Shown here: in pieces, positions 5,447 to 37,261 of the stretch
Layout: every line of letters begins with the position of its first letter
Numbering within the stretch: the first letter of the stretch is position 1
From: Arthrobacter sp. MN05-02
GTDB taxonomy: Bacteria; Actinomycetota; Actinomycetes; Actinomycetales; Micrococcaceae
Assembly: GCA_004001285.1 (NCBI GenBank)
Contig: AP018697.1
Location: 496,001-560,000, forward strand
Length of the DNA: 64,000 nt
Reading direction: 5' to 3'
Notes under the pieces: model-generated
Database searches by the model: none
Seen by the model: the letters and a program-made list of their open reading frames with translations, nothing else
What the model was told of the DNA's origin: nothing
Made by a program: the position numbers and the translations under genes

Positions 5447-5818
5447 TCAGGCGGCCCGGGTCAGCGCCGCGCGCAGCGGGTAGTCCGAACCCTCGAGGAC
5501 CACCTGGGCGCACCGCCCGGTCGCAGGGTCCAGGACGATCGGTGCCGCCAGGTTCACCGTGGTGCCGCCCGGGGCGGGATTCGCGACGACGAACAGGTGG
5601 GCTTCCGGCACGTCCGGTCCGAGCACGTCCCGCTGCGCGTCCGAGAAGCGCGGGCTGTAGGCCGGCACGTAGGTCGCGGCGTCGAGCAGGAACAGGCGCA
5701 CGCCGGTGTCGTCGGCAGAGGTGAGGGTGAACAGACCATCGGCGCCCTGCACCTCCTCAAGGCGGAACTCGGTGCGCGGCGCGAGGCCGGGGGGAGGAGT
5801 CACGAAATCCGCCCTCAT
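5447..5818 (-). CDS. fliW: Flagellar assembly factor FliW
   Basis: This 123-residue protein matches FliW: LFLLDAATYVPAYSP, then the conserved block ANPAPGGTTVNLAAPIVLDP, and a C-terminal VVLEGSDYPLR. In Firmicutes and epsilonproteobacteria FliW binds the translational repressor CsrA and releases flagellin mRNA from it, while free flagellin competes for FliW. csrA is at the far end of this same locus and the fliC leader carries matching GGA sites, so the same role is likely here. Its ATG overlaps the flgL stop by 4 nt, and it is the last gene of the flgN-flgK-flgL-fliW transcript. Confidence 0.92.
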   Translation of the reverse strand: MRADFVTPPPGLAPRTEFRLEEVQGADGLFTLTSADDTGVRLFLLDAATYVPAYSPRFSDAQRDVLGPDVPEAHLFVVANPAPGGTTVNLAAPIVLDPATGRCAQVVLEGSDYPLRAALTRAA

Positions 5819-6690
5819 CGCAGGAAGTCCATCAGGGAGGGCTGGAGCACGCGCGCCGAGACGGCGAGGGCGCTCTGGTAGGCGGTCTCCTGCAGTTTGA
5901 GGTCCAGGATGATGGACGCGAGGTCGATGTCTTCCACGGCGGCGCGTTCTCCTTCGAGTGCCAGCGAGGCGTCGGTGACCGTGTCCTTGGCTTCGAGGAG
6001 CCGTGCGTGGCGTGTGCCGATCTCGCTGTGATGTGAGGTGAGGTCCTGGATGCGTTGCTGAAGTGGCGCGAGGTGGACGGACACGTCCTTGCCGGCGCGC
6101 AGGTCGGCGGCAATGGTGTCCAGCAGGGCGAACGCCGAGCCGGCACCGCTGCCGAAGACCGCAGCCCCGTCCGCGTCGACGCGGACCGTCCGGTCCGGGC
6201 CCACCCGTCGCTCGACCGTCCCCCCGGCGGCGAACGTGAGGTCCGGACCGAGTGCGGTGGGGGCATCCGTGTTCCCGGCGAACAGGAACCGGCCCGCGTA
6301 GGTCGCGTTGGCCTGCGCCGCGAGGTCGCTCCGCAGGGATTCGATGTCGAGCGCGAGGGCCTCGCGGGCCGCCGGCGGCAGCGAGGAGTTGGATCCCTGC
6401 AGCGTGAGGTCGTTCACCCGGTCCAGCGCGCGCTTCGAGGTCGTCATCGCGTTGTCGAGCTGGGCCAGCCAGCCCTCCCCGTCGGAGATGTTCCGCCCGT
6501 ACTGTTCGGTGGCGCGGATCTCCGCACGGACGCGCAGTGCCTCGGCCGCCCCGGCAGGATCGTCGGACGGGCGGTTGATGGCCTTCTGGCTGCTCGCCTT
6601 CTCCTGCAGGTCCGCGAGTCGTGCGAGATTGGTCTGCAGGGAGCGCTGGGCTCCGTGCAGCATGGTCTGGTTGGTGACGCGTGTGATCAT
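5815..6690 (-). CDS. flgL: Flagellar hook-associated protein 3 FlgL
   Basis: A 291-residue flagellin-fold protein. The N-terminal D0/D1 helix begins MITRVTNQTMLHGAQRSLQ and carries the family block INRPSDDPAGAAEALRVR; the C-terminal helix (YQSALAVSARVLQPSLMDFLR) closes the coiled coil. FlgL is the junction protein between the hook and the flagellin filament and is exported by the flagellar type III system. It follows flgK by 12 nt and overlaps fliW, so all three share the sigma-28-like promoter ahead of flgN. Confidence 0.94.
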   Translation of the reverse strand: MITRVTNQTMLHGAQRSLQTNLARLADLQEKASSQKAINRPSDDPAGAAEALRVRAEIRATEQYGRNISDGEGWLAQLDNAMTTSKRALDRVNDLTLQGSNSSLPPAAREALALDIESLRSDLAAQANATYAGRFLFAGNTDAPTALGPDLTFAAGGTVERRVGPDRTVRVDADGAAVFGSGAGSAFALLDTIAADLRAGKDVSVHLAPLQQRIQDLTSHHSEIGTRHARLLEAKDTVTDASLALEGERAAVEDIDLASIILDLKLQETAYQSALAVSARVLQPSLMDFLR

Positions 6691-6702: not shown

Positions 6703-8087
6703 CTAGCGTCCGACGATTCCCATACGGTTGATGAGGACGTCGAGCATCTCGTCGACGGCCGTCATCACGCGCGCGGCGCCCTGGTAGGCGTGCTGGTACT
6801 GCAGCAGGTTGACCTGTTCCTCATCCATGCTCACGGAGCCGGCGCCGAGCTGCTGCTGCAGCGCGGTGGTCGCCGACACCTCGGCGAGCGCGTTGCCCTG
6901 CAGTTCCGTCCGTGCCGCAGCGCCGAGGTCGGCGACGAAGGCGGACCAGGCGGCATCGGGGAGCCGGTACCGGTGCCGATCCCGGAGATCGCATCGGCGA
7001 CCGAGCCGTCATAGGCGCCTGCACCGGGAGCGCCTGCGGCGAGGTCCCCGAGGCGGGCCGGGAGGACCGTCAGGGACGCGGCTGCACGGTTCGGCTGGTA
7101 GGCGAAGAACGGACCCTTGCCGGCGCCGCTGTGCAACGTGTTCACCTGGTCGGCGAGCTTCGCGGCGAACGCGTCGTACCCGGCAGCGGCCTGTGCCAGC
7201 GCTCCTCCGGCGTCGGCGGGGGCAAGGAGCGAGAGGGTCGCTGCCAGTTCGCCGCTCTCCACTCCGGCGGAGGCGCCCGGCCGGTGGGCCCACTCGACCC
7301 GGACCGTGCCGGGGCCGTCGAGCCGTGCGGGTCCGGTGACCTGCAGGGCGCGCGCCGTGGTGCCCGAGACCAGCGCGTTGCCGGCCAGCAGGACGTCGGC
7401 GGTGCCGTCGGCGTTCTCACGGACCGTGGCGCCGGTCAGCCCGGCGAGAGTGGCGGTCAGGGTGGTGCGGCGGTCCAGGAGTTGGTTCGCGGAGGTGCCG
7501 GAGGCGACGGCGGACCGGATCTGCCGGTTCAGGTCGGCGATCTGCATGGCGGCGTCATTGACCTCGGTGACGAGGGTGCCGGCCGAGGAGCGGAGCGAGG
7601 CCCACTGGTCCTCGACCGCGCGGTATCCCGCCGAGACGCGCGCCGTGAGTTCGCCGGCCGCGGAGAGCAGCGAGGACGCCGAGGCGTCCTTCTCCGGATG
7701 GTTGGAGAGTTCCTGCCAGCCGGCCCAGAAGTCCTGCAGGGAGGCGGAGACGCCATGCGTGCCCGGCTCGCCGAGGCTGCCCTCGAGCGCCGAGTAGGCC
7801 TGGGCGCGTACAGCGGTGTAACCGGCTGCACCCGCGGTGATGCGCACCCGCGCCTCGAGATGGACGTCGTTGAGCCGCGCGATACCCTCGACGAGCACGC
7901 CCTCCCCGGCCCGCGTCCCGCTCGTGAACATCGTGGGCCGCACCGGGGCCGCGGCCGAGGTCTCGAGCCGCTGGCGCGTATAGCCTTGGGTGGTGGCATT
8001 GGCGATGTTCTGCCCTATGACGTCGAGGCCGGCCCGCGCGGCAGCAAGGCCGGAGTAGGCAGTGTTGAGTCCGCTGAAAGTGCTCAT
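6703..8087 (-). CDS. flgK: Flagellar hook-associated protein 1 FlgK, frame broken near 6960
   Basis: FlgK joins the hook to FlgL. The N-terminus at ATG 8087 (MSTFSGLNTAYSG) has the classic hook/rod block DVIGQNIANATTQGYTRQR. The C-terminal block (SMDEEQVNLLQYQHAYQGAA, then VDEMLDVLINRMG) is in another frame and ends at 6703. Adding one G to the GGGG run at 6958-6961 joins them as GSPDAAWSAFVADL, giving about 461 residues. Without repair the protein would lose its C-terminal D0 helix, which FlgK needs for export and assembly. It sits 7 nt after flgN, its likely export chaperone. Confidence 0.9.
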
Positions 8088-8094
8088 CGTCCCG

Positions 8095-8580
8095 CTAGAG
8101 GTCCTTGTTGAAGAGGGTCGGTCGGCCATGGCCCTGGGTGGTCTCACCGTCGGCCGCGTAGGTGCCCGCGCCCGTATTGATGCCCGCCAGGGTCTCCTGC
8201 GTGGAGCGGCTCGCCGCCCGGAGGAACTGCTGGTTGCTGTCGCGGACCGCGGCGATCTGCGCCACGAGGACCGTCATGGCCCGGAGGTGGTCGGCGAGGA
8301 GTTCCCCCCACGGCCCCTCCGGGGCGGCTGCCGCGAGTTCACGGAGGCTGGCGCCGTCGTGGATACCCCACTCCGTCGCGACGCCCGAGGCATGCACTGC
8401 ACGTGCAAGCCCGGTGTCGCGCAATCGCTCGAGCACCTGCTCCACCTCGCGGGTGGCATGGTGCAGCCAGCGCGTCTTGCCGGAGGTCAGCAGGAGCTGC
8501 TCCTCCTCCAACTTGAAGACGAGGAGTTCGAGTAGTTCACGCTCCTGCCAGAGCAGGGCGGAGAGATCCTGGACGCTCAC
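8095..8580 (-). CDS. flgN: FlgN-type flagellar export chaperone
   Basis: A 161-residue, mostly helical protein. Long amphipathic helices (LLWQERELLELLVFKLEEEQ at the start) are typical of FlgN, which binds FlgK and FlgL before export. I place the start at GTG 8580, preceded by AAAGGAGG at 7 nt; an upstream ATG at 8637 lies ahead of this and over the sigma-28-like promoter. First gene of the transcript flgN-flgK-flgL-fliW. The call rests on position and helical pattern as much as on residue identity, since FlgN is poorly conserved. Confidence 0.85.
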   Translation of the reverse strand: MSVQDLSALLWQERELLELLVFKLEEEQLLLTSGKTRWLHHATREVEQVLERLRDTGLARAVHASGVATEWGIHDGASLRELAAAAPEGPWGELLADHLRAMTVLVAQIAAVRDSNQQFLRAASRSTQETLAGINTGAGTYAADGETTQGHGRPTLFNKDL

Positions 8581-8627
8581 GGTGCCACCTCCTTTCCGGT
8601 GCCACGGGACGGGTGGAACCGGAAGAA

Positions 8628-8655
8628 CTATCGGCATTGCCCGCCGCGATGTAAG
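8628..8655 (-). promoter_or_regulatory. Sigma-28-like promoter of flgN-flgK-flgL-fliW
   Basis: On the minus strand, CTTACA (8655-8650), 15 nt, then CCGATAG (8634-8628). This matches the elements before fliC, flgB, flbD and fliM. Transcription would start near 8621, about 40 nt before the flgN GTG. Confidence 0.75.
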
Positions 8656-8693: not shown

Positions 8694-10952
8694 CTACCCG
8701 AGGAGGGGAGAACCCGATCCGACCGGGGAGTGCCTGGTGATCCAGGAGGCCACCTCGGCGGCGGGGAGCGGCCTGGCGAAGTGGAAGCCCTGGGCGAGAT
8801 CGCACCCCAGCGCCCGCAGTTCGATCAGGGTCTCCTCGTTGTCGACTCCCTCTGCCACCACCCGCAGGTCGAGGCTGTGCGCCAGGTCGATGATCGAGCC
8901 CACGAGCCCGCCGGCGCGGCGGTCCGAGCGCATGGCGGTGATGAAGGACCTGTCCAGCTTCAGTTCGTCCGCGGGAAGATCGCGCAGGTACGCCAGGGAG
9001 CTGTAGCCGGTTCCGAAGTCGTCGATCGACACCTGGATGCCGTCCGCGCGGAGCCGCGCGAGGATCTTCGCGGAACGGGCCGGGTCGGCCATCAGCATGT
9101 CCTCGGTGATCTCGAGCGTGAGGCATCCGGCCGGCATGTGGTGCCGCTCGAGAAGGGCGCGGACCTGTCGGGGCAGACCGGGCTGGATGCAGGACCCGGA
9201 CAGGTTCACGGCGACGCTGATCGTCAGCCCGTCGGCACGCCAACGCGAGACCTGGTCCACGGCGGCCTCGAGCACGAGCTTGGAGAGCTCGGGCATCAGG
9301 CCGGCCTCCTCGGCGAGGGGCAGGAACGACGTCGGTGGCAGTTGCCCGATGACGGGATGGTTCCAGCGGATGAGCGCCTCGACGCTCGAGACGGCGTCGT
9401 CGGGCAGGTGCACCTTGGGCTGGTAGTGCAGCTCGAACTGGCCCTCGACCAGCGCCGCGCGGAGCTCCTGCAGCGTCCGCAGCTTCCGCGCGCCGCCGTC
9501 GTCGTCCAGAGAACTGTAGAGGTGGTGGCCGCTGCGCTCGGACTTGGCCCGGAACATCGCGATGTCCGCCTTGCGCATCAGGAGCTGGATGTCGGTGCCG
9601 TTCTCGGGTGTGAGGGCGATGCCGATGCTGACCCGGATCGTCAGGGCGGCCGTACCGATCCGGATCGGTTCCACGAGTTCCGCTTCCAGGCGTCGTGCCA
9701 TCTTCAGGGCCTCCTCCCGGGTGACGCCGTCGAGGAACACCGCGAATTCGTCCCCGCCGAGGCGTGCCAGCAGGTCGCTCGACGTCAGTGCCCGGGCGAA
9801 GCGCTCACCGACTTCGACGAGGAGGGCGTCCCCGACATCGTGGCCCAGGGCGTCATTGACGTCCTTGAAGCGGTCGAGGTCCAGGAAGAACAGGGCGCCG
9901 GAGCGCTGCCCGCCGAGCCGACCACCCAGATCCTGTACGAGCCCCCGGCGGTTGGGGAGGCCCGTCAGATCGTCGGTGGTCGCGAGGGCGACCAGCAGGC
10001 GGTTCCGGAACAGGAGGGGTGCCGCGGCCAGGAGGACGGTGAGGGCGGCGAGGACCTGGGCGAGAGGTGCGATGGGGACCTGGCACCCGATGAGCAGGAC
10101 GGACACGGCCGAGCCGGTGGCCACCATCAGCATGGTGACGGCGGGCAGGCCGCGGTCGTGGTGACGGAAGACCGTACCGGCTCGGGCGATGCCGTCGATC
10201 CACAGGGCGATGGCGACGATTCCCAGGATCCAGCCGGCGTCGATCACCGATCCGGAGCTGTACTGATCCGCGCCCAGCGCGTAGGCGATGTCCGCGGCGG
10301 CGAAGAGCATCAGGCCGGCCACGAGCAGCGGCCAGCGCGGCCCGGGATCGAGCTCGCGGGAGGTCATCAGGCCACCGATGGTACTGATCAGCAGGAGATC
10401 CAGGACGGGGTAGATGACGACGACCACCATCTCGAACGTCGTACTGCTGCCGGCGCCGGCCTTCAGGACCGGCGCGAGGATCATGGCCATGACGGATGCG
10501 GCGGCCAGGGCCCCCACGAGGCTGTCCAGCAGCAGGGGCCAGGTGCGGCCCCTCAGTTTCCGCACGGTCACCACGAGGGTGCCGAGCATCAGCGGATAGA
10601 ACGCGAAGTACGCGATATCCGCAGCCGATACGACGGTGAGGGAGTGCTGCCCCTGCAGCGCGGAGAGGTAGTAGGCGTCGCCCGCGGTGTAGACCGTCAC
10701 AGCCGCGGTACCGAACACCACCTGCCACTGTGAACGACGCGTTCCCACGACCGCGAATACGCAGACGACGACAGCGGAGAGTTCCGCGGCGATGCCGAGC
10801 CACGAGCGGACGGCATCGAACCGGGCTTGGTCGCCGAGCAGGAGACTGACGGCATACAGTGCCGCGACGACCACCGCTGCGATGACGGGAACCCGGGAGA
10901 TCTTCACCCTCTGCGCGCCATTCCTATCAACTTCAGACACATCAGCATGCAC
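8694..10952 (-). CDS. Membrane-bound diguanylate cyclase/phosphodiesterase (GGDEF-EAL)
   Basis: A 752-residue protein. About nine or ten membrane helices fill residues 21-320. A GGDEF domain follows, with an intact active site (LARLGGDEFAV, GGDEF at 399-403) and DLDRFKDVND before it. An EAL domain then follows, with EALIRW at 525-530 and DDFGTGYSSLAYLR, so both c-di-GMP synthesis and breakdown look catalytically possible. The product-inhibition site, RxxD five residues before GGDEF, reads TSSD, so feedback inhibition is probably lost. The start is GTG 10952 with GGAAGGAAAGGAAG upstream. It lies beside the flagellar export-chaperone operon, which fits a role in switching between motile and sessile states. 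Confidence 0.93.
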   Translation of the reverse strand: MHADVSEVDRNGAQRVKISRVPVIAAVVVAALYAVSLLLGDQARFDAVRSWLGIAAELSAVVVCVFAVVGTRRSQWQVVFGTAAVTVYTAGDAYYLSALQGQHSLTVVSAADIAYFAFYPLMLGTLVVTVRKLRGRTWPLLLDSLVGALAAASVMAMILAPVLKAGAGSSTTFEMVVVVIYPVLDLLLISTIGGLMTSRELDPGPRWPLLVAGLMLFAAADIAYALGADQYSSGSVIDAGWILGIVAIALWIDGIARAGTVFRHHDRGLPAVTMLMVATGSAVSVLLIGCQVPIAPLAQVLAALTVLLAAAPLLFRNRLLVALATTDDLTGLPNRRGLVQDLGGRLGGQRSGALFFLDLDRFKDVNDALGHDVGDALLVEVGERFARALTSSDLLARLGGDEFAVFLDGVTREEALKMARRLEAELVEPIRIGTAALTIRVSIGIALTPENGTDIQLLMRKADIAMFRAKSERSGHHLYSSLDDDGGARKLRTLQELRAALVEGQFELHYQPKVHLPDDAVSSVEALIRWNHPVIGQLPPTSFLPLAEEAGLMPELSKLVLEAAVDQVSRWRADGLTISVAVNLSGSCIQPGLPRQVRALLERHHMPAGCLTLEITEDMLMADPARSAKILARLRADGIQVSIDDFGTGYSSLAYLRDLPADELKLDRSFITAMRSDRRAGGLVGSIIDLAHSLDLRVVAEGVDNEETLIELRALGCDLAQGFHFARPLPAAEVASWITRHSPVGSGSPLLG

Positions 10953-11130: not shown

Positions 11131-11158
11131 CTTACATCCCCTCACGGACCTCCGATAG
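11131..11158 (+). promoter_or_regulatory. Sigma-28-like promoter of fliC
   Basis: CTTACA (11131-11136), 15 nt, CCGATAG (11152-11158). The transcript would start near 11165, leaving a leader of about 55 nt before the fliC ATG. It is nearly identical in both boxes to the promoter of flgN. Confidence 0.78.
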
Positions 11159-11170
11159 CTACTGGTGCCG

Positions 11171-11211
11171 GCCCATGGATGGGCAGGCGTTTGCAGCCCT
11201 TTCACGGAGGA
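11171..11211 (+). promoter_or_regulatory. Candidate two-site CsrA target in the fliC leader
   Basis: Bases 11171-11184 form a 5-bp hairpin (GCCCA, loop TGGA, TGGGC) that shows ATGGA at its loop. A second motif, ACGGA at 11204-11208, overlaps the Shine-Dalgarno CGGAGGA. Both fit the CsrA consensus AnGGA, and a GGA in a hairpin loop plus one over the ribosome binding site is the arrangement known in the Bacillus hag leader. The spacing of 29 nt is compatible with bridging by one CsrA dimer. Confidence 0.55.
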
Positions 11212-11218
11212 ATACATC

Positions 11219-12049
11219 ATGGGTTTCCAGATCAACACCAACACCGCGGCCAACACCGCATACCGCAACCTCTCCAGCACCCAGAACGACATCTCGAAGT
11301 CGCTCGAGAAGCTGTCCAGCGGTCTCCGCATCAACCGCGCAGCCGACGACGCCGCCGGCCTGTCCATCGCCGAGGGTCTGCGCTCGCAGGTCAACGGCCT
11401 CGGAGTTGCAGCCCGCAACGCCCAGGACGGCATCAGCGTCGTGCAGACCGCTGAAGGTGCGCTGACCGAGGTCCACAGCATCCTGCAGCGTGTCCGCGAC
11501 CTGGCCGTCCAGTCGGGCAACGACTCGAACAACGCCGACGCCCGCACGGCGATCAAGGCAGAGGTCACGGCACTGTCCGACGAGCTCACCCGTATCGGCA
11601 ACTCGACGAACTTCAACGGGACGAACCTGCTGGACGGCAGCGCTACGCTGACGTTCCAGGTCGGCGCAGGTAGCACAGCGGCGAACGACCAGATCGAGGT
11701 CGATCTGTCCGGCGCGGACATCAAGACGCTTGGTGCGACCATCGGTGCGCTGGACTTCGACTCCGCTGAGAACGCGCTGACGACCATCGCAGCACTGGAT
11801 ACGTCCATCAAGGACATTTCCACCTCGCGCTCCGAGCTCGGTGCCGTGCAAAACCGCTTCGAGTCCGCGATCAACAGCATCAACGTCTCGCAGGAGAACC
11901 TCGCTGCGGCCGAGTCCCGCATCCGCGACACCGACATGGCGAAGGAGATGGCGAGCTTCACCCGCTCGAACATCCTCTCGCAGGCCGGTACCGCGATGCT
12001 GGCCCAGGCCAACCAGATGAACCAGGGTGTCCTTCAGCTCCTCCGCTAG
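11219..12049 (+). CDS. fliC: Flagellin
   Basis: The filament subunit, 276 residues. The N-terminal D0/D1 block (MGFQINTNTAANTAYRNLS, then SGLRINRAADDAAGLSI) and C-terminal block (DTDMAKEMASFTRSNIL, ending NQMNQGVLQLLR) are the standard flagellin termini. The variable middle is short, which makes this a small flagellin. The start is ATG 11219 with SD CGGAGG at 8 nt; the in-frame ATG at 11165 is the sequence around the predicted transcription start. It is read from its own sigma-28-like promoter and is followed by a hairpin terminator at 12077-12117, so it is probably monocistronic. Confidence 0.97.
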   Translation: MGFQINTNTAANTAYRNLSSTQNDISKSLEKLSSGLRINRAADDAAGLSIAEGLRSQVNGLGVAARNAQDGISVVQTAEGALTEVHSILQRVRDLAVQSGNDSNNADARTAIKAEVTALSDELTRIGNSTNFNGTNLLDGSATLTFQVGAGSTAANDQIEVDLSGADIKTLGATIGALDFDSAENALTTIAALDTSIKDISTSRSELGAVQNRFESAINSINVSQENLAAAESRIRDTDMAKEMASFTRSNILSQAGTAMLAQANQMNQGVLQLLR

Positions 12050-12190: not shown

Positions 12191-13564
12191 ATGGCGTTCT
12201 CCATCGACGGCATCGCCAGCGGGCTGGACACCACGAACATGATCAACCAGCTCATGCAGCTGGAAGCACGCCCGCAGTCGATGCTCAAGGCGAAGGCGAC
12301 CTCGACACAGGGCTTCGTCACCGCCCTGCAGCAGCTCAACACGCGGCTCGGATCCCTGACCGAGCTCGCCACCAGGACGGCCAAGCCCGGAGCCCTCGAC
12401 GTCTACAAGGCCACGGCAACCAGCGACGCCGTCACCGCGACGGCCACCTCGACGGCTGCGGCCGGCTCCCTCGACTTCACCGTGAAGCAGCTCGCCTCCT
12501 CCCAGTCCTCCGTCACGGCAGCTCTGACGGCCTTCTCGCCGGCGGCCTCCATCCTGACCCTGCGCGCGGCGGACGGCACCACCACCGAGGTGAAGACCAC
12601 CGGTACGCTCGACGACGTCGTCGCCTCCGTCAACAAGGCCGGTGGCGGCATCACCGCCGCGAAGGTCAGCGCGGGGACGAACGCCGACGGCGTACCGCAG
12701 TACCGGCTCCAGTTCACCGCGACGGAGTCCGGCGCCGAGCACGGCTTCGCCATCTTCCGCGGAACGGCCGACGAGGTCACCGCCGGCACCGCGACCGACC
12801 TCTTCGCCCAGACCGGAGCGGCGACCGTCCGAGCCGCCCAGGATGCCGAGGTAGTCCTGTGGGGCGGGACAGCCGCGCAGCAGGTGGTGAAGTCGGCATC
12901 GAACACCTTCGCCGACATCCTGCCGGGGGTCTCCGTCACCGTCAGCAAGACCACCACCGAGCCGGTCTCCGTGACCGTCTCCCGCGACGCCGAGGCCACC
13001 ACGAAGGTGGCGCAGGACCTCGTCGACGCGCTGCGCAGCGTCTTCTCCTTCGTGGACACCAACACCAAGGTCACGCCCGGCACGACCGCCGGCGCCGCGC
13101 CGACCACGGGCCGGTTCACGGGTGACAGCGCCGTGCGGGGCATCGCCCAATCCGTGCTCACCGCGGCAACCGCGCCCGTCGGCGGGACGTCCACGTCGGA
13201 GTTCGGTATCACGCTCACCCGCTCCGGGACCGTCGAGTTCGACGCCGACAAGTTCGCGGCCGCGCTCGCGAAGGACCCCGCAGGCACGAAAAACCTGCTC
13301 ACGCAGCTGTCCACCCGGGTGGCGGACGCCGGCAAGGCCGCCTCGGACAAGTACGACGGCGAACTCACGCGCCGCATCACGAGCCAGGAATCGACGATCC
13401 GCACTCTCAACGACCGCGTGTCCGACTGGGACCAGCGGCTCGAGAAACGGCGCGCGACACTCGAACGCACCTACTCTGCGCTCGAGGTCCAGCTCTCACA
13501 ACTCCAATCACAGGGGGACTGGCTGTCATCACAGCTGGCGAACCTCCCCACGACCGGAAGCTAG
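12191..13564 (+). CDS. fliD: Flagellar filament cap protein FliD
   Basis: A 457-residue hook-associated protein 2. The N-terminal FliD_N domain starts MAFSIDGIASGLDTTNMINQLM, the family signature (GIASGLDT), and the C-terminal FliD_C domain ends in a coiled coil (LNDRVSDWDQRLEKRRATLE, then YSALEVQLSQLQSQ). FliD caps the filament tip and lets flagellin monomers add underneath it. SD GAGAGG lies before the ATG. fliS follows 6 nt later, so fliD, fliS and the next small gene form one unit. I see no sigma-28-like element in the 140 nt upstream. Confidence 0.96.
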   Translation: MAFSIDGIASGLDTTNMINQLMQLEARPQSMLKAKATSTQGFVTALQQLNTRLGSLTELATRTAKPGALDVYKATATSDAVTATATSTAAAGSLDFTVKQLASSQSSVTAALTAFSPAASILTLRAADGTTTEVKTTGTLDDVVASVNKAGGGITAAKVSAGTNADGVPQYRLQFTATESGAEHGFAIFRGTADEVTAGTATDLFAQTGAATVRAAQDAEVVLWGGTAAQQVVKSASNTFADILPGVSVTVSKTTTEPVSVTVSRDAEATTKVAQDLVDALRSVFSFVDTNTKVTPGTTAGAAPTTGRFTGDSAVRGIAQSVLTAATAPVGGTSTSEFGITLTRSGTVEFDADKFAAALAKDPAGTKNLLTQLSTRVADAGKAASDKYDGELTRRITSQESTIRTLNDRVSDWDQRLEKRRATLERTYSALEVQLSQLQSQGDWLSSQLANLPTTGS

Positions 13565-13570
13565 CTCCAG

Positions 13571-14020
13571 ATGCTCCAGATGAACGGATACCAGGCCAAG
13601 CGGTCGCAGTACGTCCAGGACGCCGTCCTGTCCGCGACACCCGCGGGGCTGCTGACGATGCTCTACGACCGGCTGCTACTCGATCTCGCCCGTGCCGGCG
13701 CGGCGCAGGAGGCAGGGAAGTGGGGCGTCGCCTCGGAGAACCTGCTGCACGCCCAGGACATCGTCGGCGAACTGATGTCCTCGCTCCGCACGGACATCTG
13801 GGACGGCGCCACGGGACTGATGTCCCTGTACGCCTACGTGCGCCAGACCCTCGTCGAGGCCAACGTCACACGGGACCGTACCAAGACCGCCGAGTGCGCC
13901 GAGGTGCTGGAGCCGCTGCGCCAGGCCTGGCACGAGGCCGCCCGCACCGGCCAGCCGGCCGCCGTCGCGCCGTCGGACCACGAAGTGCCGCGGGCCCTGG
14001 GAGTGCTCGGCATTGGCTGA
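13571..14020 (+). CDS. fliS: Flagellin export chaperone FliS
   Basis: The product is up to 149 residues. The FliS signature is clear: YQAKRSQYVQDAVLSATPAGLL, then LYDRLLLDLARA, and the helix HAQDIVGELMSSL. FliS binds the C-terminus of flagellin in the cytoplasm and prevents early polymerisation. In some bacteria it also affects FliW/CsrA signalling by holding flagellin. ATG 13571 gives MLQMNGYQ; the second ATG three codons later, 13580, is equally good as a start. It overlaps the following gene's TTG start. Confidence 0.95.
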   Translation: MLQMNGYQAKRSQYVQDAVLSATPAGLLTMLYDRLLLDLARAGAAQEAGKWGVASENLLHAQDIVGELMSSLRTDIWDGATGLMSLYAYVRQTLVEANVTRDRTKTAECAEVLEPLRQAWHEAARTGQPAAVAPSDHEVPRALGVLGIG

Positions 14021-33172: not shown

Positions 33173-35221
33173 ATGCGCTCCTCCCTCCCGAAATTCCTGG
33201 TCCCGGTCGGCGTCGTCGGCATCATCCTGCTCCTCGTGGTGCCGGTGCCGTCGGTGCTGCTGGACGTGCTGATCATCGTGAACATCCTGCTGGCGCTCGT
33301 GATCCTGCTGAACACCATGTTCATCCGCAAACCCCTCGACTTCTCCGTGTTCCCTTCCCTGCTGCTCGTTGCGACACTGTTCCGGCTGGGCTTGAACGTC
33401 GCCTCGACCCGGCTGGTGCTCGGCGAAGGGTATGCGGGGGAGGTCATCGCGGCCTTCGGACACGTCGCCGTCGGCGGCTCGATCATCATCGGCGCGGTGG
33501 TCTTCCTGATTCTCGTCGTGATCCAGTTCGTGGTGGTCACCAAGGGCGCCGAACGCGTGGCCGAGGTCGGTGCCCGCTTCACCCTGGACGCCATGCCGGG
33601 CAAGCAGATGGCCATCGACGCCGACCTCAACGCGGGGCTGATCACGGACACGCAGGCCCGTGAACGCCGCGCGGAGGTCTCGGCGGAGGCCGACTTCTAC
33701 GGGGCCATGGACGGCGCATCGAAGTTCGTGAAGGGCGATGCCATCGCCGGGATCATCATCATCATCATCAACATCATCGGTGGCATCGCGATCGGCATGC
33801 TGCAGGGCGGCCTGCCCATCTCCGAGGCCCTCACCACCTACGGGCTGCTCACCATCGGCGACGGCCTCGTCACCCAGATCCCGGCACTGCTCATGGCCGT
33901 GTCCACCGGCATGATCGTCACGCGGTCCAACGCCGAGGCGGACATGGGCTCGACGGCGGCCCAGCAGCTCGGGCAGTCGCAGAACGCCCTGCGCATCGCG
34001 GGCGCGGCGGCGATCGTCATGGCGCTCATCCCGGGCATGCCGAAGCTGCCGTTCATCGTGGTCGGTGCAGGTCTGATCGTGATCGCGCAGCGCCTCAAGA
34101 AGTCCGACGACGACGCCCGCACCGCGGCGGCGGCGCTCGAGGCCGAAGCCGCCGCACCCTCCGCCGACAGCACGGACGACCTGCTCGAGCAGATGCGGGT
34201 CCACGCCCTCGAGGTACTGCTCGCACCGGATCTCGTGGACGTCGTCACAGGAGCTCCCGACGACCTCCTCGGACGCGTCCGCGCCCTCCGCCGCAAGGTC
34301 GCCCTGGAACTCGGGGTCGTCGTGCCCCCCGTCCGCACGCGGGACAGCATCGACCTGCCGCCCGCCACCTACGTCATCAGGATCGCCGGTGTCGAGGCCG
34401 GCCGGGGCGAGGCGCCGCGCGGCAAGGTCCTGGCGCTCGGCGACCACCTCGCGCACCTGCCGGGCACCGCCGTCGTCGAGCCCGTCTTCGGACTCGCCGG
34501 GAAGTGGGTGCCCTCGGAGCTGCGGCACAACGCGGAACTCGCCGGTGCCACCGTGATCGACCGCGTCTCGGTCCTCGTGACCCACCTGTCCTCGGTGATC
34601 ACGGCCAATGCCGCACGGCTGCTGACGCGCGAGGACGTCCGGGTACTGACCGACGGCGTCCGCCAGGTCAACCCCTCCGCCGTCGAGGAGCTGGTTCCCG
34701 GGCTGCTGTCCCTCGCCGAGGTGCAGCGGGTGCTGCAGGGGCTGCTGTCCGAGCAGGTCCCGATCAACGACCTCGCCCGCATCTACGAGGCACTGACCCT
34801 GAAGGCGAAGTCCTCGTCCGAACCGGAGGGCCTGGTCGAGGCGGCCCGGCTGGCACTCGGTCCCGCTGTGACCCAGCAGTATCTCGACGGCACGCTGCTG
34901 CGGGTCGTCATGATCGACCCGCTGCTCGAACAGTCCATGCTCGAGGGGCTGCGCCCGTCCGACCAGGGCACGCAGATCCTCCTCGATCCCGCCCGGACCG
35001 AAGCCGTCCTCGCCTCGATCCGCTCCACGGTGGCCGACATCGAGACCACCGGCCGTACCGCGGTGCTGGTGTGCGCGCCGGCGCTGCGCCCCGCGCTCAA
35101 GCGGCTCGTGGGTCCCCAGGCGGCGGGCCTGCCCGTGCTCTCGTACCAGGAAGTGACGAGTGCGAATGTCGCCATTGAGACCATAGGAGTGGTGCGTGGC
35201 TCCGCAGTTATTTCATCTTGA
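33173..35221 (+). CDS. flhA: Flagellar export protein FlhA
   Basis: A 682-residue protein. Its membrane half begins FLVPVGVVGIILLLVVPVP and holds the FHIPEP-like block (LGLNVASTRLVL, GAERVAEVGARFTLDAMPGK, QMAIDADLNAGLI), followed by a cytoplasmic four-subdomain part (YVIRIAGVEAGRGEAPRGKV, TAVLVCAPALRPALKRLV). FlhA forms a nonameric ring that receives export substrates and couples proton flow. It overlaps the following FlhF-like gene by 26 nt. Confidence 0.97.
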   Translation: MRSSLPKFLVPVGVVGIILLLVVPVPSVLLDVLIIVNILLALVILLNTMFIRKPLDFSVFPSLLLVATLFRLGLNVASTRLVLGEGYAGEVIAAFGHVAVGGSIIIGAVVFLILVVIQFVVVTKGAERVAEVGARFTLDAMPGKQMAIDADLNAGLITDTQARERRAEVSAEADFYGAMDGASKFVKGDAIAGIIIIIINIIGGIAIGMLQGGLPISEALTTYGLLTIGDGLVTQIPALLMAVSTGMIVTRSNAEADMGSTAAQQLGQSQNALRIAGAAAIVMALIPGMPKLPFIVVGAGLIVIAQRLKKSDDDARTAAAALEAEAAAPSADSTDDLLEQMRVHALEVLLAPDLVDVVTGAPDDLLGRVRALRRKVALELGVVVPPVRTRDSIDLPPATYVIRIAGVEAGRGEAPRGKVLALGDHLAHLPGTAVVEPVFGLAGKWVPSELRHNAELAGATVIDRVSVLVTHLSSVITANAARLLTREDVRVLTDGVRQVNPSAVEELVPGLLSLAEVQRVLQGLLSEQVPINDLARIYEALTLKAKSSSEPEGLVEAARLALGPAVTQQYLDGTLLRVVMIDPLLEQSMLEGLRPSDQGTQILLDPARTEAVLASIRSTVADIETTGRTAVLVCAPALRPALKRLVGPQAAGLPVLSYQEVTSANVAIETIGVVRGSAVISS

Positions 35222-36602
35222 GGGTCCTTCCCTCGAGGAGCTGAAGATCCAGGCCGCGGCCCTGTACGGTCCGCGGGCACTCATCGTGTCCGCCGAACTC
35301 GTCACGGTCGGCGGTATCCGCGGCGTGCTCGCCCGCAGGCACTACGAGATCGTGGTCGAGGTGCCCGACCCTGCCACCGGACAGGCCGACGGCTACCGGT
35401 CCGTGTCCGGTTCCACGTCCGGCAGCCGGCGGGGGCGCCGCAGCGCCGCAGCGCCGGCCGGCATCGACGCCCTGCTCCGGCAGGCCGAACTGGACGAGGT
35501 GCGGATAGCGGGCGGGTCCTCTCCCGCCGGGTCGCCGGCGGCAGGCTCCAGGGGTGTCGCAGCCGGTGCCGCAGCCGGTGCCGGCGGGCCGGGATCCGGT
35601 ACGCCCGGTGCCGGTGCGGGGGAGCCGGCCGGCGTCTCGACGGACTCGGGTCTCTTCGCGGCCCTGATGGACAACCTCACCTTCGCGACCTCTCCCTCGG
35701 CACCCGGTACCGTCGCCGACCCTTCGGCGGCGCGGCGGCGGCACGGCGACGACGCACCGCGGGCACTCCCGGACGTCGAACCGACCCGGACCGAGCCACC
35801 CGGCGGACCCGTAGCCGCCGGATCCGTCACCGCCGGATCGACCGACCCCGGACCCTCCGGCGGGTCCACGCCGTGGGGCCTGCGCGCGAGCGGCCGGCCC
35901 TCCGCCGCGCCGGGAAGCGGTGAGGCACCCGATGATGCACCCGCCGTCGTGCCGCACCTCGCTCCGCACCCGGGCGACCCGGCGGACCTGCCCGACCTCG
36001 GAGGCTACGTCGTCGACACCGCCGCTGCGCCCGACCCCGACCCCGTGCCCGCCGTCCTCTCTGCCCCCGGCGACCTCGTGATCGTCGTCGGCGCGCCCGC
36101 CGTGGTGTGGGAGGTCGCTGTGTCCATGGCGGCGGCGTTCGGTCGGGGCGCCCCGGCCGCCGTGGCCGTCGCCGGGCCGGAGGGCTGGCTGACCCGCGAC
36201 GCACGCAGGATCGACGACCGCCTCGACGCCAATGCGGCCCGTGCCGCCGGAGTGGACGGCGGGCATCCGGTCTTCCTGGCGCTGTCCTCGGAGGATCCCG
36301 TGACCGACGCCCGGCTCCTGCTCGCCCTGCGCCCGGACCAGGTGTGGCTCGCGGTCGACGCCGGACGCAAGGAGGCGGATACTGCCGCGTGGGTCGGAGC
36401 GCTCCGCAGGAGCATGGAGCGCGCCGAGCTCGCGCCGGCAGGGCTGGCGGTCGTGGGGTCTGGGTCGACGGCGACGCCTGGCACGGTGGATGCGCTCGGT
36501 CTGCCCGTGGGCTGGCGTGACGGCGGGTCCCCGGAGTCCCCGACGCTCCGCCGCGCTGCCGCCGTCGGTCGACGCCGGGCCGAGCCCGCCGGGATAGAGT
36601 GA
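35196..36602 (+). CDS. FlhF-like protein with a degenerate GTPase domain
   Basis: A 468-residue protein. The first 50 residues match the FlhF N-terminus (HLEGPSLEELKIQAAALYGP, ALIVSAELVTVGGI). A long Gly/Pro/Ala-rich region follows, and then a nucleotide-binding-like fold starting LVIVVGAPAVVWEVAVSMAA. Where SRP-type GTPases have GPTGVGKT, this reads GAPAVVWEV, so the P-loop Lys/Thr are gone. The TKLD guanine-binding motif is also absent (GLAVVGSGSTATPG). It probably cannot bind GTP. It starts at GTG 35196 inside flhA. It could place the flagellum or act as a scaffold without GTPase cycling. No flhG follows. Confidence 0.8.
   Translation: MAPQLFHLEGPSLEELKIQAAALYGPRALIVSAELVTVGGIRGVLARRHYEIVVEVPDPATGQADGYRSVSGSTSGSRRGRRSAAAPAGIDALLRQAELDEVRIAGGSSPAGSPAAGSRGVAAGAAAGAGGPGSGTPGAGAGEPAGVSTDSGLFAALMDNLTFATSPSAPGTVADPSAARRRHGDDAPRALPDVEPTRTEPPGGPVAAGSVTAGSTDPGPSGGSTPWGLRASGRPSAAPGSGEAPDDAPAVVPHLAPHPGDPADLPDLGGYVVDTAAAPDPDPVPAVLSAPGDLVIVVGAPAVVWEVAVSMAAAFGRGAPAAVAVAGPEGWLTRDARRIDDRLDANAARAAGVDGGHPVFLALSSEDPVTDARLLLALRPDQVWLAVDAGRKEADTAAWVGALRRSMERAELAPAGLAVVGSGSTATPGTVDALGLPVGWRDGGSPESPTLRRAAAVGRRRAEPAGIE
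36595..36600 (+). promoter_or_regulatory. -10-like element 6 nt before csrA
   Basis: TAGAGT ends 6 nt before the csrA ATG. It lies within the end of the flhF-like gene. No clear -35 is visible and csrA starts 4 nt after that stop, so co-transcription with the fliM operon is also possible. Confidence 0.4.
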
Positions 36603-36606
36603 AACG

Positions 36607-36907
36607 ATGCTTGTTCTAACGCGAAAGGTCGGCGAGCAGATCCTGATCGGCGACGACATCGTCATCACGGTGCTCGATTCCCGCGGTGACGGCATCCGCA
36701 TCGGCATCGATGCCCCGCGCGGCGTGAAGATCCAGCGCGAGGAGGTCCTGCGTGCCGTCACGGAGGCGAACCTCGCCGCCGCGGCTGCCGATGCCGAGGC
36801 CGCCGATACGCTCAAAGGCGCTGCTCCGGTCCGGAGCGGTGGTGGCGACGGAGGATCCTGCCGACGGATCCGCCGATGCCCGCCGCGGCCCGGCCGACGG
36901 CGCCTAA
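36607..36907 (+). CDS. csrA: Carbon storage regulator CsrA, frame probably broken near 36842
   Basis: The first 50 residues are a perfect CsrA core: MLVLTRKVGEQILIGDDIVI, then GIRIGIDAPRGVKIQREEVL, with RNA-contacting Leu4, Arg6 and the conserved Arg before GVKIQR. CsrA dimers bind AnGGA sites over ribosome binding sites and block translation; FliW removes them. In the written frame the ORF runs on to 37221 with an Arg/Pro-rich tail. Removing one base near 36838-36845 gives a shorter end (DPADGSADARRGPADGA, stop at 36907) and about 99 residues, more in keeping with CsrA. It is the last gene of the flagellar locus. Confidence 0.9.
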
Positions 36908-37018
36908 CAGACTCTCCCCGCACTGGCGAGCAATCCGGATCCCCGATTCTGCGTTGTCGCTCGAAATCGACCGGATCTAGCCTGACACCACCTGTTCATA
37001 CCAACATGGAGGTGCCAC

Positions 37019-37261
37019 ATGGCTACTGGAGAAACCGGATTCGACGACGTCTCTTTCGACCTCATCTCGCTGCAGTACCACTCGCTCAAAGCAGGACACG
37101 ACTACGGGCAGTACGTGCGCGACGCCCGGAACGCCGGTCGCGACGACATCGCCGAGTTCTTCGAGCAGGTCATGGCCCAGGACTCCGAGCGCGCCGCGAG
37201 GTGCCATGCGTTCCTCGGTGAGCTGACGAAGTCCGACGACTCCGGTCCCGCGATGAGCTGA
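37019..37261 (+). CDS. Small conserved actinobacterial protein
   Basis: An 80-residue acidic protein (MATGETGFDDVSFDLISLQY and onward) preceded by a good ribosome binding site (GGAGG, 6 nt). It is predicted to be mainly two helices with His, Glu and Asp (SLKAGHDYGQYVRDAR, IAEFFEQVMAQDSERAARCH), a pattern seen in small ferritin-like or stress-associated actinobacterial proteins. I do not recognise a function. It stands alone, 111 nt after the corrected csrA stop, and is followed by a hairpin terminator at 37276-37307. Confidence 0.8.
   Translation: MATGETGFDDVSFDLISLQYHSLKAGHDYGQYVRDARNAGRDDIAEFFEQVMAQDSERAARCHAFLGELTKSDDSGPAMS

Follow-up and report, generated by a model that had tools for sequence, protein, structure and literature searches.

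The 5' leader of the flagellin gene fliC in Arthrobacter sp. MN05-02 is, with high probability, a two-site target of CsrA and part of a CsrA-FliW flagellin switch of the type known from hag and flaA, as judged from its sequence. Two CsrA-type sites, the second of them over the Shine-Dalgarno sequence, are conserved among the CsrA-bearing members of the family together with a covarying stem, FliC, CsrA and FliW co-occur in the family's genomes, and in one lineage csrA, fliW and both sites are absent together. By analogy with Bacillus and Campylobacter, we infer CsrA binding, repression of translation, relief by FliW and feedback from flagellin. A CsrA dimer would dock on a GGA in a hairpin loop and bridge about 29 nt to the GGA of the Shine-Dalgarno sequence, and the bridged CsrA would keep ribosomes from starting flagellin synthesis until FliW, binding the CsrA helix that carries V51 and N55, lifts the block. 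Unexported flagellin would hold FliW and CsrA would stay active; upon completion of the hook and its junction, flagellin would be exported, FliW freed and fliC translated.

Two candidate CsrA sites in the fliC leader

The window, which here means the whole stretch of 64,000 nucleotides that was analysed, has a GC content of 70% and comes from a genome of 3.64 Mb on two contigs. The features around the leader, all on the forward strand, are as follows.

11132..11158, + strand: inferred sigma-28-type fliC promoter (TTAC, 15 nt, TCCGATAG; from sequence)
11165..11218, + strand: inferred fliC 5' leader, 54 nt (match to covariance model R1)
11167..11188, + strand: 5' hairpin with arms 11167-11174 and 11181-11188 and loop 11175-11180 (covariation of 82 leaders and R1 alignment)
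11174..11181, + strand: candidate CsrA site 1, CATGGATG, with GGA in the hairpin loop
11203..11210, + strand: candidate CsrA site 2, CACGGAGG, over the Shine-Dalgarno sequence
11219..12049, + strand: fliC, flagellin, 276 aa (Pfam Flagellin_N and Flagellin_C)
12191..13564, + strand: fliD, filament cap (domain match)
13571..14020, + strand: fliS, flagellin chaperone (domain match)

The sigma-28-like -10 element TCCGATAG at 11151-11158 would place the 5' end of the fliC RNA near 11165. CCGATA-like -10 elements are kept in relatives, often with CTAAC upstream, and a scan for sigma-70 promoters and terminators around fliC found none. R1, which was built from a family alignment that includes the window leader, matches the window once, at 11165-11221 (65.7 bits, E 3.9e-18; next best 9.1 bits). 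At Rfam gathering scores a tRNA was the sole match in the whole window, and the leader fits no curated RNA family.

An earlier note on this DNA had pointed to ATGGA in a hairpin loop and ACGGA over the Shine-Dalgarno sequence, and both motifs were found where it had placed them, at 11175-11179 and 11204-11208. Both sites are longer than first claimed, as CATGGATG and CACGGAGG each fit CANGGANG. ANGGA by itself is near chance in the window, with 437 matches on both strands against 409.5 expected. When the 54-nt leader was shuffled with its dinucleotides preserved, two CANGGANG occurred in 0 of 5000 shuffles and at least one in 198. The proposed two-site arrangement also held up: the sites are 29 nt apart, within the published range of 10-63 nt over which one CsrA dimer bridges two sites (PMC7652899). 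CAN precedes GGAGG at 5 of the 55 mechanically defined GGAGG start sites in the window, fliC included.

Conservation of the leader within the family and alternative readings

In the family sample of 295 genomes, a FliC-type flagellin was found in 98, a match to CsrA in 97 (of which 96 exceed the cut-off) and a match to FliW in 97. CsrA and FliW occur together in 96 of the 98 FliC genomes, and the other two (G102 and G133, of one genus) have neither. Among genomes that lack FliC, a CsrA match is found in G022 alone, sub-cut-off and with a stop inside, and a FliW match in G029 alone, a genome that is 82% complete. The stretch in G022 (G022:C2:46405-46554), with its internal stop and no flagellin match in the genome, looks like a relic of csrA after loss of flagella. 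The 98 genomes yielded 101 fliC leaders, 99 from genomes with CsrA and FliW and two from genomes with neither; G013 (flagellin match with E 4.5e-4) and G029 (one weaker match, E 1.4e-20) contributed no fliC leader. In the flagellin tree, the window protein clusters with its A. ruber counterpart.

Conservation of the loop motif had been set beforehand as the refuting test, and the motif is kept in 99/99 leaders from CsrA-bearing genomes and absent from both leaders without CsrA and FliW. Each of these 99 leaders has a single CANGGANG site, 40-58 nt ahead of the start, and a single TCA[CT]GGAGGA at the Shine-Dalgarno sequence, with a spacing of 28-38 nt between the sites (29 nt in the window). 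Across the family TCA[CT]GGAGGA is present in 99 of 101 leaders, the exceptions being the two CsrA-less ones. A strict hairpin test, which required a contiguous stem closing a loop that holds ANGGA, picked out 93/99 leaders, compared with 3.3 expected by shuffling, and the six misses have a stem mismatch or a short stem. The leaders of fliD served as a control, in which a start could be assigned by pattern in 8 of 30 loci (L003-L032), and CANGGANG was present in none of these few loci (0/8).

The minimum-energy fold of the window leader by itself pairs A11175 with U11180 and leaves a UGGA loop, and the arms contain one G-A mismatch (11170/11185). In 57/99 family leaders, the window's included, the loop ends in a U that may pair with the A to give a four-base loop; in the other 42 it ends in C or A, which makes the A-U pair impossible and the loop ANGGAN. 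The folding energy of the window leader is ordinary (z 0.00); the case rests on conservation. Collapsing 17 identical leaders left 82 distinct ones as alignment rows. The core CC-ANGGAN-GG is invariant in all 82, and the outer stem pairs covary. The covariation score was 0.403, compared with 0.139 (sd 0.014) in shuffles, none of 500 shuffles scored as high, and the score was at most 0.107 when the partner was slid by 1-3 columns. Pairing was possible in 85.8% of alignment cells (69.7 in shuffles), double changes occupied 119 cells (52 in shuffles), and five of the eight stem pairs changed on both sides, that is, in a compensatory manner. Two of the five covariation measures were not above shuffles, namely the number of pairs with any double change (484/500 shuffles as high) and the number of pair types (175/500), and two stem pairs never vary and are uninformative on covariation. 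C[ANGGAN]G is the hexaloop type of RsmE/CsrA targets, and CsrA hairpins obtained by SELEX mostly have four or fewer contiguous pairs (PMC7652899); stems in the present leaders are often longer, which counts against the CsrA reading.

The leaders of G102 and G133 carry neither site and keep a Shine-Dalgarno sequence of the AGGAG type. G102 retains flgK, flgL-like, fliC and fliD genes, and in G133 two flagellin-type matches were examined. The flagellin of both genomes falls inside a group of family and neighbour flagellins (99/95), nearest to Actinotalea and Occultella but not firmly so (91/82), on a long branch (1.13) that may be misplaced in a midpoint-rooted tree. From this placement we conclude that the lineage probably once had the leader and then lost csrA, fliW and both sites, a single event represented by two genomes of one genus. 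Upstream of fliC in loci L100 and L102 of this genus there are still GGTCC and GGACC stretches similar to the stem arms, but the loop core is gone, perhaps a decayed hairpin.

Among the alternatives, the one that fares best accepts that CsrA binds the leader but holds that the outcome is localisation or decay of the mRNA, or that FliW itself binds the leader. We regard this as unlikely, even though CsrA-FliW controls the localisation of flaA mRNA in Campylobacter (PMC4894983), and B. subtilis CsrA is reported also to restrict the hag transcript and FliW to bind the hag leader (PMC6529632); the position of site 2 over the Shine-Dalgarno sequence in 99/99 leaders points to translation. The alternative overlaps with the CsrA-target reading, and the outcomes may add together.

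Much less probable is that the leader merely combines a strong ribosome-binding site with an mRNA-protecting 5' hairpin whose loop GGA has no protein partner. GGAGGA is also the ribosome-binding consensus, a stable 5' hairpin is a common means of prolonging the life of an mRNA, and the hairpin is indeed located at the inferred 5' end. Such a hairpin would need no fixed loop, yet CCA-N-GGA-N-GG is the same in 82/82 leaders while the outer pairs vary; TCAY before GGAGG, which ribosomes do not require, is invariant in 99 leaders; and the CsrA-less genus keeps its Shine-Dalgarno sequence with neither site. That the hairpin is instead the DNA operator of a transcription factor, for which GGCCCATGGATGGGC, imperfectly palindromic and immediately downstream of the promoter, would qualify, is very improbable, since the arms of an operator should be conserved, whereas here they differ among genera with pairing mostly kept, and the invariant part takes in the asymmetric centre. 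Both the operator and the mRNA-protector readings were set aside on these grounds.

csrA, fliW and the flagellar locus

The two-site CsrA reading also calls for the protein partners, and the earlier note had located both genes in the flagellar locus. We found csrA and fliW there, placed as it describes, with the following neighbours of fliW.

5447..5818, - strand: fliW, 123 aa, a divergent member (Pfam FliW 63.1 bits, cut-off 25)
5815..6690, - strand: flgL-type, flagellin-like, 291 aa (domain match and place after flgK)
6831..8147, - strand: flgK (domain match)
8095..8637, - strand: flgN
36607..37221, + strand: csrA, core at about residues 1-65 (Pfam CsrA 84.2 bits)

The fliW gene shares 4 bases with the end of flgL, lies downstream of flgK and flgN as well, and is probably co-transcribed with flgK and flgL. 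Its product scores below the NCBIfam FliW cut-offs, and a sequence comparison with solved structures gave no match. The csrA product is barely above the cut-offs of two NCBIfam csrA models. Residues L4, R44, V51 and N55 of CsrA are present in the window protein and in all ten same-genus csrA genes that were fetched; L4 and R44 are critical for RNA binding by CsrA (PMC7652899), and binding of FliW requires V51 and N55 in Campylobacter and N55 in B. subtilis as well (PMC7829508).

After about residue 68 (window 36800-36830), the csrA frame diverges from that of the ten genus relatives and runs to 204 aa. The relatives' products have 78-121 aa, most with an LKALLQSGA-like tail, and a tail of this kind can be read in another frame of the window; a 204-aa fusion protein was set aside in favour of a frame difference on this ground. 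The shift is possibly an assembly error in a short A run, and the core residues are unaffected.

Several other genes of the locus deserve mention. Downstream of csrA come a small unnamed gene and a tRNA gene. An 80-aa ORF of unknown family lies after csrA (37005-37261, + strand) with the Shine-Dalgarno sequence CATGGAGG. It was found in 3 of the 10 genus csrA regions (L325, L327 and L334), all with CA[CT]GGAGG at that place, and by its sequence is a possible second CsrA target. Between flhA and csrA, a 468-aa ORF (35196-36602, + strand) gave no Pfam or NCBIfam match, and its position suggests an FlhF-like protein. A gene for a GGDEF-EAL protein, a cyclic-di-GMP gene (8694-10952, - strand), is situated between flgN and fliC and divergent from fliC.

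Reach across the phylum and comparison with known systems

Outside the family, the strict hairpin was found in 11/12 leaders from other families of the order (0.4 expected), 22/31 from other orders of the class (1.5 expected) and 27/56 from other classes (3.2 expected). CANGGANG lies upstream of the Shine-Dalgarno region in 12/12, 28/31 and 30/56 of these leaders, respectively, and in eight of the nine strict-hairpin misses from other orders of the class; conservation of the leader weakens outside the class. The class set of 31 includes one leader each from G708 and G1017, incomplete genomes with no CsrA match; the leader of G708 (L201) is still present. G1025 and extra copies were left out of the class leaders, and G746, G748, G770 and G1038, which are under the cut-off, out of the class test for CsrA and FliW. 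That test found CsrA in 45/50 genomes and FliW in 45/50, with the same five lacking both: two are incomplete (63 and 80%), two are large family f5 genomes whose flagellin matches are odd, and one has a weak flagellin match only. In the phylum sample, from which genomes with weaker matches only and some extra fliC copies were left out, 59 leaders comprised the 56 from other classes and 3 from other families of the order. The 61 genomes tested were the 59 of the phylum sample that bear flagellin, together with G102 and G133, in which both proteins are missing; CsrA was present in 57 and FliW in 56 of the 61. CsrA is present in 57/59 of the flagellin-bearing genomes despite the patchy site outside the class, and in some genomes of family f16, which belongs to another class, the loop GGA was not seen although CsrA is present.

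At E 0.01 or better, the family-built R1 recovered 36/43 leaders that belong to the class but to other families and orders; it also found 4/7 hand-picked leaders from other classes, and gave no match at E 10 in four loci of the two CsrA-less genomes. A search of a collection of 84,980 species (one genome each) with a two-site DNA pattern returned at least 120 stretches. Among the matches listed, which include Curtobacterium, Leifsonia, Cryobacterium, Microbacterium, Cellulomonas, Kineococcus, Demequina and Nesterenkonia, a flagellin-like N-terminus follows the pattern directly in 82/120 by a loose pattern of our own, and the other 38 look unrelated, e.g. those in Rhodanobacter and Streptomyces; a stricter flagellin pattern gave 50/80 among the matches listed. 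Two metagenome-assembled contigs assigned to Armatimonadetes and Acidobacteria (L221 and L269), which match R1 by construction, show the hairpin and Shine-Dalgarno pattern before a flagellin-like gene; this could reflect convergence, transfer or a binning error.

CsrA-FliW control had been called scarcely described in Actinobacteria. Scarce it is, but it is not undescribed, as CsrA control of Kineococcus radiotolerans flagellin through a site like BS2 of hag was proposed in 2008 (PMC2587704). Actinobacteria are also listed among the groups that may use FliW (PMC4682653), and in the accessible text of PMC10746217 CsrA and FliW are named merely as queries. In the open-licence literature we found predictions only and no experimental test of the switch in Actinobacteria; our analysis predicts that a switch tested in e.g. 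Bacillus, Clostridioides and Campylobacter extends to this phylum. flgM was reported missing in K. radiotolerans and three other flagellated Actinobacteria (PMC2587704), and because it was reported absent in those sequenced by 2008, the leader could be a main checkpoint for hook completion. In Actinoplanes, flagellar genes are said to be all transcribed at once with no transcriptional checkpoint, and a 2021 review considers post-transcriptional control there possibly important but unknown (PMC8306008). We tentatively propose, as a conjecture rather less likely than not, that in flagellated Actinobacteria the leader, CsrA and FliW form the main or only tie of flagellin synthesis to hook completion, that this arrangement was inherited from early flagellated ancestors within the phylum, and that csrA, fliW and both sites were dropped together in one genus of the family. 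The question of hook completion becomes directly testable in organisms reported to lack flgM. The conserved hairpin also offers a ready means of spotting flagellin genes in genomes, and the genus without csrA, fliW and sites is a natural control.

Among known systems, the flagellin leader of B. subtilis hag likewise has a pair of CsrA sites, one of them over the Shine-Dalgarno sequence, and there FliW opposes CsrA and is itself held by flagellin (PMC7652899, PMC6070490). The likeness is one of layout, taken from published descriptions of hag and not from a sequence alignment, and whereas fliW adjoins csrA in Bacillus (PMC4894983), in the window about 31 kb separate the two genes, which lie on opposite strands. 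The flaA leader of C. jejuni, a 45-nt 5'UTR, likewise carries one ANGGA in the SL1 loop and another over the ribosome site; its structure is backed by compensatory changes and FliW antagonises CsrA, but Campylobacter belongs to another phylum and its second site is itself in a stem-loop (PMC4894983). K. radiotolerans is an actinobacterium with csrA in its motility island, and the Shine-Dalgarno region of its flagellin gene Krad1626 matches hag BS2 at 9/12 bases. As far as the accessible text of that paper goes, the prediction gives the BS2-like site only, FliW does not appear, and there is no mention of a hairpin site upstream, of conservation or of loss (PMC2587704). Finally, RsmE/CsrA hexaloop targets share the ANGGAN hexaloop on a hairpin (PMC7652899); gammaproteobacterial RsmE/CsrA systems are relieved by small RNAs, whereas the antagonist gene in the window is fliW.
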